Source: Norana najaformis
Lineage: Eukaryota; Annelida; Clitellata; Crassiclitellata; Hormogastridae
Assembly (NCBI GenBank): GCA_964023275.1
Contig: OZ029918.1
Coordinates: forward strand, 38,239,477-38,303,476
Reading direction: 5' to 3'
DNA length: 64,000 nt
Position numbers and translations under genes: made by a program. The notes beneath the pieces were generated by a model that worked only from the letters and a program-made list of their open reading frames with translations, was not told the DNA's origin and did not search any database. Positions 23,475-45,696 of the stretch are shown piece after piece; position 1 is the stretch's first letter; each line of letters begins with the position of its first letter.

Positions 23475-24446
23475 CTATGAGGGTGATGACTGAGAATCAG
23501 AGCAGTTCTGAACTGCTTCATTCTGCTTAGGATGAAATCCAAATCGTTTCGGAAGATGTGCAGCAAATGCTTTTGCCCAATCACCGTTCGCAGATATGCT
23601 GAGAAGAATGTCAAAAACCTGATTAACAGACAAAACCTGCGAGTAAGTACCCCGATCCAACTTGTCACTGAATTCCACGATAGGCAGCCTCGCACACCGC
23701 ACTCCAAACTCCTTTGCCTGGTTTACGGTGACATTTTTTTGACGTGTTTCGTCCACAAGACCTCCAATTACATAAATTTTGTCGGTGTCAAGCGTCTGAA
23801 GGACTTCGCTGGCATCTGGCGAGAGATAGACAAGGCTGTTTTTGTCGAAATGCTCGAAAACGCTCTGCTCGACAAAGTCAACGAGGTAGCGTTCGAAGCC
23901 ACAATTCTTGCGTACGCATTCTTGGAACAGATGACCAGTTTTGTTAACGCTTGTTAAATAAATATGACCTGGTTTTTCTGCATTACGATTGGAGCCATAC
24001 AGTCGACCTAATTGTTGTGCAAGTCGACTGCATTCCTTTGGACTCATGAGCTTTTCCATTCCTAGATCGATGCAGATTCGCTGTCCACTTTCCAGAGCAG
24101 ATCGAAGGTTGTCTTTGATTTGTGACAGCCTCACTTGTTTACTAACGTGAACCTGGGATGCATCGTTGCGGGAATCAGTATCGACTTTAGACTGCGAGAT
24201 TTTCGCAACTTCAGACAAAAGTGCTTTATGTAATTTTCGTTCCGCTTTCCGTTTCCGACGGGTAGATCTCATGCGCGAGATCTTGTGCTCGTATTTCAAA
24301 GCTTTACGTTCGGATGTTCGCAGGCGAACCGCCGTGTGTCCAGGACTTGCGGATTCGTTTTCACCGATTTGCTCGCAAACATCAGAGGCTGTGGATTCTT
24401 TACACGTAACTGTACTATCCATGAGGATTTCCCTAACAACATCCAA
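23475..24446 (-). CDS. TRMT10B: tRNA (guanine-9-N1) methyltransferase, TRMT10B-like, intronless
   Basis: One open frame of 323 codons. The family methylates purine-9 N1 of tRNAs with S-adenosylmethionine through a SPOUT fold. Residues 40-80 are basic and helical (RRKRKAERKLHK), as in the family's tRNA-binding N-terminus. The SPOUT domain spans about 110-305: ICIDLGMEKLMSPKE (124-138), LGRLYGSNR, VYLSPDASEVLQ (206-217), IYVIGGLVDETRQKN (224-238), ARLPI (252-256) and LSVNQVFDILLS (272-283). GGLVDE followed by QKN and the spacing to ARLPI look closer to TRMT10B than to TRMT10A or the mitochondrial TRMT10C. Start chosen: the first ATG of the frame; the second Met is residue 9. The gene has no intron here, whereas the vertebrate gene has several, so an old retrocopy is possible, but the frame is intact. 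The C-terminus is short and polar. Confidence 0.9.
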   Translation of the reverse strand: MDVVREILMDSTVTCKESTASDVCEQIGENESASPGHTAVRLRTSERKALKYEHKISRMRSTRRKRKAERKLHKALLSEVAKISQSKVDTDSRNDASQVHVSKQVRLSQIKDNLRSALESGQRICIDLGMEKLMSPKECSRLAQQLGRLYGSNRNAEKPGHIYLTSVNKTGHLFQECVRKNCGFERYLVDFVEQSVFEHFDKNSLVYLSPDASEVLQTLDTDKIYVIGGLVDETRQKNVTVNQAKEFGVRCARLPIVEFSDKLDRGTYSQVLSVNQVFDILLSISANGDWAKAFAAHLPKRFGFHPKQNEAVQNCSDSQSSPS

Positions 24447-24519
24447 ATTTCACGTAGCCTTTAAAACAACAAATCGCCAGCTCGACACTTGTTTGTTTTT
24501 GGTTTGCGAAAACTCATGC

Positions 24520-28832: not shown

Positions 28833-30323
28833 TTACATAGTGCTCGATCTCGATCTGCTTATTTGACTCTGGACGTCTTTCATTGACTCGTCTGCATAAG
28901 TCCGATGAACCAAACGCGTGTCAATCAAACCGACGTCCGTGAGTCGTCGACGGGGCACTTGCGGCTGCGATGCCCGATGATTGACAGCTCGATTTCGATT
29001 GAATTTCGTCGACAGGTGCTTGCGGGATTTGTCCCGCGTTATCATCGAGACGAACTCCTTACGGAAGTGCGCGCCTGCGAGGCAGTAGAGGTAAAAGTTG
29101 ACGGCGCTGTTCGTGTAGGAGAGAAGGCTGGCAATGGCCTCAAAGAGTCTGAATCCATCCTCGGATGTAGCTGTGGTCTCCAAAAGAGAGTCTCTTCCTT
29201 CCGGTGTGGTATTGGTCTCTGGGTGAGTGTGTTTTCCATCGACTGCGACTGTGGTCTCCAGGAACCTGTATCTGCCCTCAATTGGGGCCTTAGTTTCCTG
29301 TAGAAACTTACCATTGGGTACAAATTTAGACTCCAGGAGCCTGTGACTTCTATCGGAGGTGGAATTGGTTTCCAGAACAATGTCTCCTCCCTCGGATGAA
29401 TCCGTGTTTTTCAGGAACTTGTATACTGCCTCTGGCGTGGCCGTGTTCTTTAAGACCTGATATCTTCCCTCGGGTGAAGTCACAGCCGGAGTACCCCTCC
29501 AGTAGGGGCGTCCGATTAGAAGAACCGTACTTGGGAACTCCAGCACGAGGAAGGTGAGGGACACAGCCAGGCAGAGACCAGTCATGCGGGCGACACGGCT
29601 CCTCGACAACCCCGAGATCCCGGACAAGTTCCGTCTCGAGACCTGGAGGTAATGACGCCACGAACCGTAGCGGACCTTGACGATCTCGCGAACTATACCG
29701 ACGTTGCAGGCGATAAGGAAAAGAAACGGAACGCAGTGAGCCGTGACGAAAACTATCCACGGACGAACATAGTTCTCAAAATACGCCGACGACGGTGACG
29801 GATTCGAGCAGAATTTCGCGTACAAACTTTCGGTCTCATTTCCAGTTCCGGTTTGGATTCGGGTGACGACGGATCGAGACCAGAATATGGGCGCGTTCTT
29901 GAGAACGGCCAAGAATACGACGGTTCCAATCGAGAGGTGAATGCGTCTCTTGGCTCGAATCACTGCTCGTCGAAGGGGAAAGACAACGACGATGAGTCGA
30001 TCGAATGTGAAGGCGCAGACGAGCCAGATGGATGCATCCTGAGAGGCATAAGAGAGGAAGCTGCAAGTCTTGCACAGGAAGTCGTTGAAGGCAGTCACGT
30101 TGACGCCGAAACGGTACTGCAGCCACCTGGGAAACAGGCCGAAGATTAGGGCCCCGTTGTCGGCGACTGCGATGGCAAGGAGGTAGCGGCTGGAGGCCAT
30201 GCCTCGCAGTGCCCCTCGCGATGTGACGAGGAGAGACAGCGAGTTGCCCAGAAGGCCGAAGACGATCAGAATCGGAGAGTACACCGACCAAAGACACCGA
30301 GCTGCGTCGCTGCAGTAACTCAT
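28833..30323 (-). CDS. Rhodopsin-class GPCR with repeat-expanded third extracellular loop
   Basis: Intronless 496-residue receptor. TM1 about 13-35 (GLLGNSLSLLV), TM2 46-69 (YLLAIAVADNG), TM3 85-110, TM4 129-148, TM5 188-212, TM6 246-271, TM7 394-416. Cys84 or Cys87 can pair with Cys172 in loop 2. The DRY motif is FDRL (107-110) and NPxxY is NFYLY (409-413) after NSAV, a pattern seen in FMRFamide/neuropeptide-type orphan receptors; TM6 lacks CWxP (LEFPS instead). The N-terminus is very short (about 12 residues) with no signal peptide. Sequons are at N75, N162, N320 and N371. Residues 282-397 form about nine 13-residue repeats resembling TPEGRYxxLETTA, making loop 3 about 120 residues where 5-15 is usual; the last unit runs into TM7. 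The basic C-tail ends at 496. Ligand unknown; no subfamily can be named safely. Confidence 0.88.
   Translation of the reverse strand: MSYCSDAARCLWSVYSPILIVFGLLGNSLSLLVTSRGALRGMASSRYLLAIAVADNGALIFGLFPRWLQYRFGVNVTAFNDFLCKTCSFLSYASQDASIWLVCAFTFDRLIVVVFPLRRAVIRAKRRIHLSIGTVVFLAVLKNAPIFWSRSVVTRIQTGTGNETESLYAKFCSNPSPSSAYFENYVRPWIVFVTAHCVPFLFLIACNVGIVREIVKVRYGSWRHYLQVSRRNLSGISGLSRSRVARMTGLCLAVSLTFLVLEFPSTVLLIGRPYWRGTPAVTSPEGRYQVLKNTATPEAVYKFLKNTDSSEGGDIVLETNSTSDRSHRLLESKFVPNGKFLQETKAPIEGRYRFLETTVAVDGKHTHPETNTTPEGRDSLLETTATSEDGFRLFEAIASLLSYTNSAVNFYLYCLAGAHFRKEFVSMITRDKSRKHLSTKFNRNRAVNHRASQPQVPRRRLTDVGLIDTRLVHRTYADESMKDVQSQISRSRSSTM
29133..29480 (-). repeat. In-frame 39-bp (13-residue) tandem repeat in GPCR loop 3
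   Basis: About nine diverged units: SPEGRYQVLKNTA, TPEAVYKFLKNTD, SSEGGDIVLETNS, TSDRSHRLLESKF, VPNGKFLQETKA, PIEGRYRFLETTV, AVDGKHTHPETNT, TPEGRDSLLETTA, TSEDGFRLFEAIA. One unit is 12 residues; otherwise frame and length are kept, and G, L and E positions recur. Two units carry N-glycosylation sequons. Confidence 0.85.
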
Positions 30324-30445
30324 AGCGAAAACTCCGTCGACCTATGCGGGCTTCGCGAAGAATAACGCCAATCCCTTGAACACCTCTTTTAAGCGTGTCA
30401 TTTGCCCTATATAAAAAGAAGAGGCAAAATTATTGGACGTTAGTG
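30321..30445 (-). promoter_or_regulatory. GPCR 5' flank, duplicated at 33351-33473
   Basis: The GPCR start codon and about 120 bp upstream recur almost identically, same orientation, at 33351-33473. A TATATA-containing stretch (30408-30417) lies about 85 bp upstream of the ATG and could serve as a TATA element on either strand. No transcript evidence is available. Confidence 0.4.
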
Positions 30446-39189: not shown

Positions 39190-39806
39190 CTATTTTTCAT
39201 TGGCCTCACAGTTGCTCTGATCATGAGTAACAGCAAGAGAGAGAGCAGGATTCGATTCAGAGCGTAGATGGTTCAATTCCATGGAACCTTCGCTTGTTTC
39301 GTCAAGCGACAAACTTCGATCCTTCGTCTGTTTGCGTTTGAGAATTGTGCCACCCGTTAAACCTTTGGAACAGACAGCAACAAATGGTTTTCACTTGAAT
39401 GCATGAATCTGAAGACTTTTAACTGACTTTTAAACCTATGAAACCATACACAAAAAACACTGCAAACTTATTTTCACTTGTATGTATGCTTGCATGTATG
39501 TATGTATGAATGCAGGTGTGTAAGTGTATGCAAGTATATTATGTATGTATGTATACATGTATGTATATATTTATGTGTCCGTATGTATATATGTATGTAT
39601 GTATGTATATATGTACATATGAATGTATGTATGCATGTATGTATGTATATATGTATGCATGTACACATGTATGTATATATGTATGTATGCATGTACATAT
39701 GTATGTATGCATGTACATATGTATGTATGTATTATATGGATGTATTTATGCATGCATGCATGTACATATGTATGTACGAACGTACGTACATATGTATGCA
39801 TGTATG

Positions 39807-39850
<44 letters not shown>

Positions 39851-42800
39851 CAAGGTGTGCCTTGTACATGTTGGGCCCTCAGGCCTTTTTGGTTGCTGGT
39901 CCACGGCTTTGGAATTCGCTGCCAAGTTCTATTCTTTCTCTCAGTTCTTTGATGTCATTTTGGTCTAAACTAAAGACGCATCTCTTTCATCTTGCTTACC
40001 CACCGTAGCCTGGCTTTTGTTATCTTTTGAGTCTTGAGTTTAGACCTGAATGACATCAAAGAATTGACAGAATGAACTAAACTGGGCAGTGAATTCCAAC
40101 CAGCCAGACCAGAGAAGGCCCGAAAGCCCAACGCTGTTCGGGTATGGGGCACAGCAAGCGTCAGTGTCCATTGGTCGAGGCCATACGGTCTCTATATAAA
40201 AACGCGTGCATTTACATTTACAGCACGACAGAATTTACTAAATAACCACGTAACTCAAATGGTCCTTAATAATAAGAGACGAACAGAGAATCTGATCCAT
40301 GAAATTACCAAGAAGTCCTCCTCCCACGGCGGCCACCTTCCCCGCTTTCAGCCCGGCTACGAGCCCCACCGGACCCGCCAGCGCCCCGCCGATAACTGCT
40401 CCGGCAACCGGCAACAGCAACAACTTGAACTAAAAACAGTAACACACAATAAGAGGCTAAAGTGGGAGCTTCAGCCAAACAACTTTTAAATTTTAGGTTT
40501 ATACTTTGTGGGTCACGGTATCAGATCGGATAGAGCGCTCGGCTTCTATATAGGTCACAAACTTCGTCACTGCCTTGTTTGGGGGTAGTGCCAGTCCCAA
40601 GCCTGGATAAAGGAGGGCGATGGCAACGGTATTTGATGCCATAAGCTGTCGTTAAACTGCGGAACTACAACTACTATATAGGTCACGATTGCCGATTGGT
40701 TAGAGTGCTCGGCATGTATGTAGATCCATCAGGCAATCCCAGACACCACCCACCGTAGCTGCCACGCGTCTGTCTGCCTGATTTTTGGATCTTGACCCGG
40801 AACCAAAACCTTTCGCCAATCGATTTTTTGACCGACCGCCTGTGAATAAGCTGGTCCCCGTGACGTGGCTTTTGTTGGCGCTGTAGAAATTTCCGAATTA
40901 CGATTACGATTGTAAGTGGGTCAAGGTAGCCGACTGGTTAGAGCGCTCGGCTTGTAACTCGGACAGTACCGGTTCCAGCCCTCTCCTCTAAGACGGTTAC
41001 TGTGTAGGGACCTTGAGCAAGTCCTTCATTCACAATCACTGCACCAGCAATTGATGATTTATTATATTGTGGCGCTTAATAAATGCCGGCATAATAATAA
41101 AATAATCCACACTTCCAGCGAGACTGCATTATGATAACGGCGCTATAGAAGTCATCAGATCGGAACAGAAGCGCACAGCAACGGTTTCACATAAGAGGAT
41201 TTTGCAAATAAATTCTAAAAAGCAAAGACTAACGTTGGACAGATTGAGCCCCGTTTTATGCTGATCGTCGTCGGCAAGAGAAGTCGATTGTACTCCGCTG
41301 TCCCGCGCCTAAAACCACCACCGTAATCAATAAAGAGTCAAACAAAGGAGGTTTCTTATGCGAGTTCTTTGTTGTCTGTCTACATGTGTTTCCATCTTTG
41401 TCTGGCAGTCCATGTGTCTGCGTATATGTCCGTGTCTGTCTGTCTCTTTGTCCGTCTGTGTTCTCATTAGCACACCATAAAGGAGTTTCTGTCACTCTAT
41501 GCAGTCTGCTTTGTTGACGATAAATATGACGAAAACGACGATGACAATACTGTAAATATAATAATCGTGATCAAGATAATTATGATGACTATGACAACAA
41601 CGATGAAGAGGTTACGATTACAACTACAGTGATGATGAAGATGATTACGACGATGATGAAGTATAAATACCTCAATCAGAGAAAACAGTTCTTGAATCAG
41701 ATTATTGAACTCACGGAGTTTCTAAAAACAGAAAATAATCAATATAATTATATTCACGCAAATGATTTTGCAACTGGAAGAGGTGGAGAAGACCCATGGG
41801 CCAGAGGGAAGATCATTGGAAGACCCATGTGCTGGGGTAGACTTGTGGGCCAGAGGAAAGATCCATGGCCCAGAGAGAAGACCAGGGGAAGACCCCTGGG
41901 CCAGAGGGAAGACCAGGGGAAGACCCATGGGCCAGAGGAAAGATCCAGGCCCAGAGGGAAGACCCCTGGGCCAGAGGGAAGACCAGGGGAAGACCCATGG
42001 GCCAGAAGGAAGACCCATGTGCTAGGAGGAAGACTCAGGAGCCAAGGGGAAGATCCACGAGCCAGAGGGAAGACCGGGGAAGACCCATGTATGTATGTAT
42101 GTATGTACGAACTTGGTATAGCGCCTTTTAAGTGCCTCACAAAGGCACTTCCTGCGCTAACTTAAATGATGTTAAGTGTCATTAAGAACAAAAATTCCGT
42201 CATTTAGCAAGCAGTGTTCAGATAACTAGAAATGTCACCAGCTGGAAGACCCATGTGCTAGGGGAAGACTTGTGGGCCACAGGGAAGATCCATGGACCAG
42301 AGGGAAGACTGGGGAAGACCCATAGGCCAGAGGGAACACCCATGGGCCAAAGGTAATACCCATAGTCCAAGGGGAATAGAATTTCAATTGTTTTTGGAAA
42401 GTGGAAACCTTTTTTTGGCCTCCAAAACAGATAAAACAAATATGGACAAAACCACGTAAAGATGGAAACTCAAAATTAATGTTGTAACTGATATTTACCA
42501 ATTCCAAAGCTTTAACATTTTCATCTTCTTCCGCTTTGTTCTTCGTCTCAACGTCGTCTCCTTTGACGACTTCTATTTTTGTCTTCTTCTCTCCTAACGA
42601 ATTGCATTATTAATATTATTATTTCTGCATTTATCAAGCGCCAATAAGTAAATAAACAAGTAAATAAATAAGTAAATAAACAAGTAAATAAATTTGTAAA
42701 TAAATAAATAAACAAGTAAATAAACAAATAAATAAGTAAATAAACGTGTAAATAAATAAGAAAATAAACAAGTAAATAAATACGTAAATAAATATGTAAA

Positions 42801-45696
42801 TAAATAAATAAACAAGCAAATAAACAAGCAAATAAACAAGTAAATAAATATGTAACTAAATATGTAAATTAATAAACAAGCAAATAAACAAGCAAATAAA
42901 CAAGTAAATAAATAAATGTTTCGCACACCTTGGTTCATCGCAAGCAATTGCTCCATCATGAAGTTCTTCGGAATCGCCTCAACACCTCCAGCTGGGATGA
43001 GAAAGTCCTTGCGACACATAGGGCAGATGATGGGGCAACCGGGGACCTTGCCCTTCGAGTACTGCTGGAGACATCGCAGGCAGAACGTGTGCATACATGG
43101 CAGACCACGTGGTTCAACAAATCGGTCGGTACATATGGAACAATGCGTCATGTCTTCCAACACAGTAGCAACAACTGCTCATAAAAAGCAAAACTCTACT
43201 CACAGCCTCACTCAAAATGTGTTATGTTACTGGTAATGTTTACAGGTTTACATTTGTATTATCAACACATGAGTAAACTTGAAGCCATTTACCCATAAAT
43301 ACAACTTTAACTGGGGTGTATGATAGTTTAGTCGGGAGCATGCTGGACTGTCGACCCTTAAGTCAGGGATTCAAATCCTGGTCAGAGCAGAAAAGCATTC
43401 TGAAGTTTCCAGTCCACATGCATCTCTTACCAAACTTTGCTACAAAATGAATATACACATGAATATGTAATTGTAATCGTAATACACTGTAGCTGTCTGC
43501 CTGCCTGCCTGCCACTTAGATCTTGACCTGGAACCGAACCCTTTTTGTCTATCGATTTCGTTTTGACCAAGCGCCTGTGATTAAGCTGGTTCCCTCAACT
43601 TAGCTTTCATTGGGCGCTGTAGAAATCTTGAGTTTATGATTATGATGCAGCCTTACCTTTACCTTACCTATGACGGTAAATCTCACAGATAACTGATGAG
43701 GCATATGCTACGTAATTACCTTAGTTTACCTTTACCTTACCTATGACAGTAAATCTCACAGATAACTGATGATGCATATGCAACGTAATTACCTTAGTTT
43801 ACCTTTACCTCACCTATGACGGTAAATCTCACAGATAACTGATGAGGCATACGTTACGTAATTACCGCAGTTTATCTTTACCTCACCTTGCCTATGACGG
43901 TAAATCTTACCGGTGACCGATGGTTCTGTCTGGTCTACGTGTTTTCCTTCGCACAGCAGGACGAGGAATTGAGCGGTCATAAGCACAGCACCATTAAGGA
44001 TCTCCATCAGCTGAAGGTCAAACATCGCAAGGTCATCCAGCTCAACCTTGAAAACAACAGATGAATGAATGAATCAATCAATCAATCAATCAATTCAACA
44101 CCTGACGATCAATCAGCTGATCAGTGGGTCAACTGGTCAGTAGGTCTTATATGACTCAGTCAGTCAGTCAGTCAATCAGGCAATCAGCCATCAAGTGAGT
44201 CAGCCAGTCAGTCATGAGTCAGTCAGTGCATCAGTCAGTCAGTAAGTCAGTCAGTCAGTCTGTAAGTAAGTAAGTCAATCAGTCAGTCAGCAAAACAGTC
44301 AATCAAGACACAAACAGCAGACTGACAGAGAGAGAAAGAGAGCAAGACAGAGAGAGAGCAAGACAGAGAGAGAGCAAGACAGACAGAAAACAAGACAGAC
44401 AGAGAGCAAGACAGACAGACAGCAAGACAGACAGACAGCAAGATAGACAGAGAGAGAGAGCAAGACAGAGAGAAAGCAAGACAGAGAGAGAGCAAAACAG
44501 ACAGAGAGAGAACAAGACAGACAGAGATCAAAACAGACAGACAGCAAGACAGACAGACAGCAAGACAGACAGACAGAAAGCAAGACAGACAGAGAGCAAG
44601 ACAGACAGAGAGAGAACAAGACAGACAGAGAGCAAGACAGACAGACAGAGAGAGAGAGAGAAAGAGAAAGACAGACAGAAAGAGAGACACAGAACCTCCT
44701 CAGAAGGAGGGTCATGAGGTCAAAGGTTCATCCGGCTGAGCTGAAGACTTTGGCCACAGAAATCAAATGACAGAACGAACTGTTCTAATTACCTGAACTC
44801 TCGTCTGCTTGATCTGCTTCAAGGTTGTGACAAGCTGCTCAACTGAACGCAAGGCATAGGTGTGTTCACGACTTAAGTCTGCTGAACCGCTCGTAAACTA
44901 AACAACAGAAATAAGTATGCTATCCAACACAAACAAGTATACTAATGCTAACCAACACAAACAAGTATGCTAACCAACACAACTAATGTATGTTAACCAA
45001 TGCTAATAAGTATGTTAACCAATGCTAATAAGTATGCTAACCAAAACAAATATGTACGCAAGTAAGAGCACTTTTTATAGGACATCTCTGAGCAAACTAG
45101 AAAGCTGAATATTTCAGCTGTGTGTCCAAATTAAAGTTAAGCTAAAATCTTAAAGCCGGTAAGGTAAGGTAAGGTAAGGTACTCGGAAGGGTATGGTAGG
45201 GTAAAGAGGGTAAAGGTAGGTAGGTTAGGGTAGGCTATGGTAAGGTACCTGCAACAGATGCGAAGGTTACACCATAAAAAGATAAGCTTCAGTTTCTGTG
45301 TCTACTCCTCCTCACCTATCCTTACCTTTTCACTTACCATTACCTTCTACCAGTTCCTAGTTAGCATCACCCTAGCAATGCATTTTTAACACATCACATT
45401 CATCAACCTCATTACCGTTACCTTTGCCCAGTTACCTTCTTACGGTTATCATTACCTTCTCGAAATAAAATTGTCATTACCTACTCCCAGTTACCACTAC
45501 ATACTTCCAGTTACCTTTGCCAAGTTACCATTACCTTCTCAATATTCTGCCTGTGCTGTTGAAGGCGGTCGAGGTTGAGCTGAAAGACAGTGAAGAAGCG
45601 TTTCAGAACCGGCTGAATCCGCCGCAGAGGAAACCGTCGAAACTTCTCAATATCCGTCTGAATCGATTTTAAAAATCCACCAACATCGTCCATCAT
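39190..45696 (-). CDS. STX17: Syntaxin-17-like SNARE (multi-exon)
   Basis: Eight exons were built by hand: 45535-45696, 44793-44897, 43911-44046, 42499-42593, 41671-41721, 40309-40429 and 39190-39362, plus the optional RING exon 42929-43174. All junctions are GT-AG and phases agree. Exons 1-2 resemble the STX17 N-terminal helical region (LRRIQPVLKRFF, LDRLQQHRQNIEK). Exons 42499-42593 and 41671-41721 read ALEL-KLREFNNLIQELFSLIE across the junction and align without gaps to the start of the STX17 SNARE motif. Exon 40309-40429 encodes the Gly/Ala-rich double membrane hairpin (LLLLPVAGAVIGG, GPVGLVAGLKAG), diagnostic of STX17, and the last exon begins LTGGTILKRKQ like the family tail. The first ATG has an in-frame TGA 15 nt upstream. 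Known role: Qa-SNARE of autophagosome-lysosome fusion, with SNAP29 and VAMP8. Located exons give 280 residues without the RING (human about 302); about 30 residues of the C-terminal SNARE half were not found. Confidence 0.85.
39478..39848. repeat. TATG microsatellite in the last STX17 intron
   Basis: About 370 bp of TATG with TATATG, CATG and TACG variants. Confidence 0.9.
39868..40150. mobile_element. Two opposed LINE ORF-tail fragments
   Basis: Plus-strand 39868-40010 reads LVAGPRLWNSLPS and SKLKTHLFHLAYPP. On the minus strand 40030-40150 holds a second tail (AGWNSLPSLVHSVNSLMSFR). The pair forms an imperfect inverted repeat downstream of the STX17 membrane exon, in its last intron. Confidence 0.65.
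40915..41090 (+). mobile_element. tRNA-derived SINE (family T), best head
   Basis: TAGCCGACTGGTTAGAGCGC (A box), GCTTGTAAC (anticodon TGT) and GGTTCCAGCCCTC (B box) are followed by the common body and the tail GCGCTTAATAAATGCCGGC then ATAATAATA. It sits in the STX17 intron between the 41671 and 40429 exons. Confidence 0.8.
41785..42370. repeat. Minisatellite around GGGAAGACCCATGGGCCAGA
   Basis: Two blocks (41785-42090, 42240-42370) of 20-35-bp units flank a short spacer, in the intron between the two SNARE-region STX17 exons. Frames on both strands here are repeat translations. Confidence 0.85.
42640..42918. repeat. AAATAAAC/AGTAAATA tract next to the RING exon
   Basis: About 280 bp of AAATAAAC-type repeat, 10 bp from the RING exon donor. 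If unspliced, the RING frame reads into it as a Leu/Phe/Tyr-rich tail. Confidence 0.9.
42929..43174 (-). CDS. RING-finger cassette exon inside the STX17 gene
   Basis: The 246-nt exon starts after a pyrimidine-rich CAG acceptor and ends before GTGTGC, a weak donor. It is phase 1 at both ends, like the junction between STX17 exons 43911-44046 and 42499-42593, so it can be included or skipped without breaking frame. It encodes a complete C3HC4 RING: C-SI-C, 11 residues, C-M-H-TF-C-LR-C, 15 residues, C-PM-C, then IPKNFMMEQLL, typical of the linker after TRIM-type RINGs. With inclusion the RING would lie at about residues 146-188 of a 362-residue partial product. RING domains recruit E2 enzymes for ubiquitin transfer. 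Without the weak donor the frame runs into a TTTATTTAC-like repeat coding for hydrophobic residues and then stops. Alternatives are the first exon of a nested TRIM-like gene, or a duplicated, unexpressed exon. The RING assignment is firm; membership of the STX17 transcript is inferred. Confidence 0.7.
43655..43912. repeat. 73-bp tandem repeat containing a copy of the STX17 exon 3 donor
   Basis: CTATGACGGTAAATCTCAC recurs at 73-bp spacing (43668, 43741, 43814), then 78 bp on (43892), the last copy being the authentic exon 43911-44046 donor region. On the minus strand each unit carries GTGAGATTTACC where the true donor is GTAAGATTTACC. Confidence 0.8.
44050..44690. repeat. GTCA/ATCA and CAAGACAGACAG microsatellites
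   Basis: 44060-44300 is ATCA/GTCA; 44310-44690 is GACA/GAGA with a CAAGACAGAC super-repeat, within the STX17 intron between exons 2 and 3. Minus-strand frames rich in CLSVCL are repeat translations. Confidence 0.9.

Follow-up and report, generated by a model that had tools for sequence, protein, structure and literature searches.

A TRIM-type RING exon in an STX17-derived gene of Norana najaformis that has no recognisable SNARE motif: a putative hairpin-anchored E3 ligase

Results

Structure of the STX17-derived gene

The window analysed in this study is a stretch of 64,000 nucleotides of the genome of the annelid Norana najaformis (assembly GCA_964023275.1, contig OZ029918.1, positions 38,239,477 to 38,303,476 of the forward strand). 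An STX17-derived gene was located on its minus strand, from 45696 to 39190. The coding sequence of this gene, 1164 nt including ATG and TAG, is divided among nine exons whose phases were all consistent (Table 1). The product of this gene, which has eight introns across 6.5 kb, is a protein of 387 aa. The domain order in this protein is the STX17 N-terminal domain, a TRIM-type RING, a charged linker containing a remnant of a SNARE helix, the membrane hairpin and the C-tail. In canonical STX17, the membrane-fusion protein of autophagy, the SNARE stretch precedes the hairpin.

Table 1. Coding exons of the STX17-derived gene in the window, with the proportion of aligned residues identical to the protein P0001
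Feature	Position in window	Strand	Evidence
Exon 1, start ATG, N-terminal domain	45535..45696	-	46/53 aligned residues identical to P0001
Exon 2, N-terminal domain	44793..44897	-	28/35 identical to P0001
Exon 3, last helix of N-terminal domain, phase 1 end	43911..44046	-	32/45 identical to P0001
RING exon, phase 1-1, TRIM-type C3HC4	42929..43174	-	Pfam, structure matches, ligands; 63/82 identical to P0001
Exon 4, charged linker	42499..42593	-	19/32 identical to P0001
Exon 5, remnant of first half of SNARE region	41671..41721	-	17/17 identical to P0001
Exon 6, expected place of second half of SNARE motif; shortened, unrecognisable	41234..41308	-	16/24 identical to P0001
Exon 7, first part of C-terminal hydrophobic hairpin, conserved Lys (residue 318)	40309..40429	-	40/40 identical to P0001
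Exon 8, end of hairpin, C-tail, stop TAG	39190..39362	-	35/57 identical to P0001

Two other open frames were observed on the minus strand of the window, one of 502 aa (28833-30341) with a match to rhodopsin-type GPCRs (PF00001, E 2.9e-17) and one of 324 aa (23475-24449) with a match to tRNA (guanine-1)-methyltransferase (PF01746, E 1e-32). A phage search with the locus gave no match. Elsewhere in the assembly, contig C15 harboured two COX1-like fragments (412069-412726 and 570464-571281). Their frames are broken and they contain TGA codons, and they are probably nuclear copies of mitochondrial DNA.

The RING exon, of 246 nt, is the fourth of the nine coding exons. It is preceded by ...TATGAGCAG and followed by AAG/GTGTGC. 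Exon 3 (donor CCG/GTAAGA) contributes one base to the reading of the RING exon, and with that base 82 residues are encoded without a stop and with an in-frame junction to exon 4. The direct join of exon 3 to exon 4, without the RING exon, is likewise in frame. A sequence-only reading of this locus had proposed an exon of this length and phase with eight intact zinc ligands, lying between STX17 exons with both joins in frame, and all of these features, together with its coordinates, were verified. The same reading had considered the GTGTGC donor weak. It is not the best possible donor, but it is less weak than feared by the donor rules that we assume here, as AG/GT and a G at +5 are retained.

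In the 387-aa model, where the RING occupies roughly residues 135-217, the zinc ligands are C146, C149, C161, H163, C166, C169, C185 and C188, which is eight out of eight in C3HC4 order. The RING exon matched two Pfam RING models, PF00097 (E 5e-9) and PF13445 (E 1.1e-8), and both matches passed the model cut-offs. The closest solved structures were the RINGs of TRIM2 (E 1.4e-16) and TRIM3 (E 1.4e-15). Judged by these matches, the exon is a TRIM-type C3HC4 RING.

A relative with the same fusion

The first protein search, against 5.8 billion proteins, was performed with an early RING-less model of the window gene (299 aa). From 7115 candidates it returned 11 proteins, and the best matches were STX17 proteins. 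The top match, P0001 (E 4.5e-121), is a protein of 397 aa from one contig of 1305 nt, and its precomputed families include RING families as well as the STX17 N-terminal family PF26585. P0001 was 77% identical overall to the window model, and in both proteins the RING is flanked by the same pair of STX17 segments. Mapping of P0001 onto the window gave nine exon matches, in order. The conservation of the RING between the two proteins (63/82 residues) was at least as tight as that of the neighbouring exon 3 (32/45) and exon 4 (19/32). As P0001 carries the same RING at the same position with this level of identity, the RING exon is not a chance open frame but a real and conserved exon that belongs to the gene.

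P0001 is most likely derived from spliced RNA, since it is a single open frame on a 1305-nt contig, compared with eight introns over 6.5 kb in the window. The intron-free frame and the 77% identity suggest that P0001 is a transcript of another species. An assembly artefact is unlikely, because the window and P0001 are separate records that are 23% different. Together these comparisons support the existence of an STX17-RING chimeric protein, at least in a relative. P0001 is a single sequence on a single contig and is known as a protein, from which the donor used by its gene is not visible.

Two further RING residues, an Ile situated between the first and second Cys and an Arg that follows the final Cys, which we take to be E2 contact and activation positions, were retained in both the window protein and P0001. 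The RING might nevertheless serve for scaffolding or dimerisation without ligase activity, in which case the protein would be a hairpin-anchored adaptor comparable to the scaffold roles of STX17, for which scaffolding has been reported in addition to its function as a fusion effector (PMC11864666). Ligase activity is a prediction here, which leaves some room for such an adaptor, but the retention of all eight ligands and of the Ile and Arg in both proteins makes it unlikely. A putative E3 ligase is the preferred reading of the RING.

Decay of the SNARE motif

The SNARE motif was evaluated with a 62-residue profile built from nine canonical STX17 proteins, with leave-one-out scoring. The canonical members, each left out in turn, scored 50.1-95.5 bits, compared with 2.9 bits for the window, 4.5 for P0001 and 1.3 for P0007; no match to this profile was obtained for P0012. 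P0007 and P0012 are RING-less relatives, 30-36% identical to P0001, in which no SNARE motif is recognisable and the hairpin is kept. The N-terminal domain profile gave 78.5 bits for the window and 77.1 for P0001 (canonical leave-one-out range 70.3-151.1), and was weak in both P0007 (18.6) and P0012 (10.4). The hairpin scored 53.6 bits in the window, 53.2 in P0001, 55.6 in P0007 and 59.5 in P0012, with a canonical range of 46.2-58.0. As both the N-terminal domain and the hairpin are retained in the window and P0001, the loss in these two proteins is particular to the SNARE part.

A Pfam scan of 12 sequences, with P0010 and P0011 outside it, was concordant with this. The SNARE model gave a row in all seven canonical proteins scanned (two above the cut-off and five below), whereas at E values up to 10 it gave none for either window model or for P0001, P0007 and P0012. 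None of the 12 sequences gave a row for the STX17 N-terminal family PF26585, an absence that is uninformative because it extends to the canonical STX17 proteins. An exon missed in the SNARE region of the window gene can be discounted, since P0001 has the same residues there. In the alignment, the position of the Gln pair, a column which we presume to lie at the ionic layer of the SNARE, reads Arg-Asp in the window and P0001. By these profiles the window protein does not appear to be a Qa-SNARE, in the sense of a protein with a SNARE motif and its central Gln. The N-terminal domain and the hairpin, both within the canonical range, and the hairpin Lys (Lys318 in the window), which was invariant across 12 aligned proteins, argue that it belongs to the STX17 family by descent.

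It had been anticipated that skipping of the RING exon would give an ordinary STX17. This expectation was not borne out, as the SNARE motif is unrecognisable with or without the RING exon and no skipped form was found. No RING-less form close to the window or P0001 was returned from the 5.8 billion proteins, although the query itself was RING-less, and use of the RING exon looks constitutive. If the RING were a cassette exon, forms with and without it would both be made and splicing would toggle the ligase function, with no ordinary SNARE either way. Inclusion and skipping are both in frame, the donor is short of optimal, and P0007 and P0012 could in principle be skipped forms. However, the RING-less query brought back no such form near either protein, and P0007 and P0012, being so divergent from P0001, inform on other species. 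A cassette is accordingly improbable, and constitutive use of the RING is preferred.

Genomic context and origin of the RING

A second STX17 was not found in the 608-Mb assembly: the canonical proteins P0005 and P0003, and the C-terminus of the gene itself, matched this locus only, and the remaining genome matches were single weak ones (E 1.88 and 5.82). As the genome was searched exon by exon, another STX17 copy could have escaped notice if it were very divergent; the evidence for a single STX17 in the assembly is good, if not final.

For TRIM-like RINGs, 150 genome matches were scored out of 406 candidates, the window exon included. The assembly holds a very large TRIM-like gene family, chiefly on contigs C8 and C2, most of whose members have an open frame of about 400 aa uninterrupted by introns. 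From 19 non-self loci, 18 TRIM-like open reading frames were drawn, of which two, of 109 and 132 aa, consist of a RING only; locus L017 was left out as it did not fit the pattern. When compared with the window, all 18 matched the RING exon. The other window matches were four, from three of the open reading frames (E 0.54-0.92), and were scattered without TRIM-like order. With these 18 open reading frames, no B-box or other TRIM part was detected in the window with an E value better than 0.54, and no B-box Pfam row was obtained for P0001 or the window model. The TRIM family architecture of a RING followed by a B-box and a coiled coil was thus not apparent in the window protein.

A test suggested by the sequence-only reading was whether the RING belongs to a separate nested gene with a B-box, and the answer is no, since P0001 joins the RING to STX17 and no B-box part was seen in the window. 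TRIM-like genes are abundant in this genome, with 127 of the 150 scored matches in open frames of at least 300 aa, but a nested TRIM gene or a decaying TRIM insertion in an STX17 intron, outside the STX17 transcript, is most improbable given that the RING of P0001 is joined to STX17 on both sides, that the window shows no further TRIM part at a better E value than that above, and that the exon is open and conserved even though its identity to the remaining 149 scored matches is just 39-53%.

A tree was built from 20 RINGs, namely those of the window, P0001 and the 18 TRIM-like open reading frames. The window and P0001 formed one clade (100/98) on a stem of 1.21, apart from the 18 TRIM-like RINGs, and the nearest TRIM relative of this clade was unsupported in the 20-row tree. 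This single clade on a long stem points to one capture that preceded the separation of the window and P0001 lineages, with the large TRIM-like family as the presumed source and the RING kept since.

The STX17 tree comprised 14 proteins (13 found, plus that of the window) and was computed from the columns outside the SNARE, the linker and the RING. The window, P0001, P0007 and P0012 formed one side of a branch (100/100), and inside this group only the pairing of P0007 with P0012 was supported (100/97). In the best tree it was P0001, not the window, that adjoined P0007 and P0012, without support (69/41), and a pairing of the window with P0001 was not rejected (p-AU 0.407). The long branches of P0012 and Dimorphilus could draw fast-evolving rows together in this tree. 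Loss of the SNARE motif would most simply be common to the four proteins. As the pairing of the window with P0001 is neither shown nor rejected, the RING may have come after the SNARE loss, or it may have been present earlier, in which case P0007 and P0012 would have lost it or would skip it. A proposed order of events, with SNARE loss preceding the arrival of the RING, was withdrawn, as the STX17 tree does not bear it out.

Discussion

The gene is probably an STX17 in which the SNARE motif was lost and a TRIM-type RING was acquired on a single occasion. Its product would be a SNARE-derived, hairpin-anchored RING protein with a constitutive RING and a putative role as an E3 ligase. This prediction follows from the combination of a SNARE motif that is unrecognisable and a RING that is intact, because a protein without the SNARE motif should not drive fusion and one with an intact RING should recruit E2. 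The protein would sit on STX17-type membranes by means of its hairpin, with the RING facing the cytosol. The RING would then recruit loaded E2 and ubiquitinate neighbouring proteins or the protein itself, and ubiquitination would take the place of fusion by SNARE pairing.

The hairpin Lys is required for the targeting of STX17 to autophagosomes in human and fly, and alone is insufficient for it (PMC11864666). Lys318 of the window protein, from its position, appears to be the same residue. In chimeras, the C-tail, and not the hairpin, determines location and membrane association (PMC11864666). As the C-tail decides location and is poorly conserved here (35/57 residues in exon 8), the choice of membrane is a guess. 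Reasoning from C-tail charge was abandoned: over the final 45-46 residues the charge is -5 in the window and -3 in P0001, but with the preceding KRKQ these values become -2 and 0. The original proposal had been a membrane-anchored SNARE-E3 chimera made on autophagosomes by alternative splicing. The RING in an STX17 gene and the fused protein P0001 are in agreement with it, but the SNARE is unrecognisable, a splicing switch is unsupported, and the membrane is presumed. Since no SNARE motif is recognisable, "SNARE-derived, hairpin-anchored RING protein" is the more suitable description. The surprise of the initial observation is thereby enlarged, as the SNARE itself is unrecognisable, and also reduced, as the splicing switch is unsupported.

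A more far-reaching interpretation, which we offer tentatively and with somewhat more doubt than confidence, is that the sole STX17 of this lineage has been converted, with the SNARE decayed, the captured RING now its working part, and the resulting platform ubiquitin-tagging membranes or cargo while fusion proceeds through other SNAREs. If the sole STX17 had indeed become a ligase, autophagosome-lysosome fusion would have to use other SNAREs, such as YKT6.

With STX17, an ancient Qa-SNARE family, the window protein and P0001 have in common the N-terminal domain and the long C-terminal hairpin with its conserved Lys. They differ in having no recognisable SNARE motif, Arg-Asp in place of the Gln pair, and a RING between the N-terminal domain and the linker. 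The RING resembles those of TRIM2/TRIM3/TRIM56-type proteins, with the TRIM2 RING as its best structural match, and those of the TRIM-like family of the genome, whereas the window gene has no matched B-box or other TRIM part. Membrane-anchored RING E3 ligases such as TRIM13, TRIM59 and MUL1 combine a cytosolic RING with a membrane anchor. The predicted layout of the window protein is alike, except that its anchor is a syntaxin hairpin, and we know of no membrane-anchored RING ligase that is held by such a hairpin or built on a chain of SNARE origin. The HOPS and CORVET subunits Vps11 and Vps18 are described as E3 ligases (PMC6478910). By that description they would share with the window protein, as predicted here, a ligase within the fusion machinery, but they are subunits of tethering complexes, whereas the window protein is SNARE-derived. 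No paper on an STX17-RING fusion or on a SNARE-less STX17 was found in a full-text search of open-licence papers, and the chaetognath genome paper PMC12460157 gave no hit for syntaxin, STX17 or autophagy.

It is still to be explained why the roles of STX17 differ from one animal to another (PMC11864666). A lineage in which the one STX17 found has lost the SNARE motif and kept the hairpin and N-terminal domain would reveal the parts that are needed without fusion, and it makes testable whether another SNARE handles autophagosome fusion there. As far as sequence comparison goes, the locus also appears to be a clear case of exon capture, in which a trafficking protein has become what is likely a new ligase. 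Judging from P0007 and P0012, SNARE-less STX17 proteins may be more widespread than the RING fusion.
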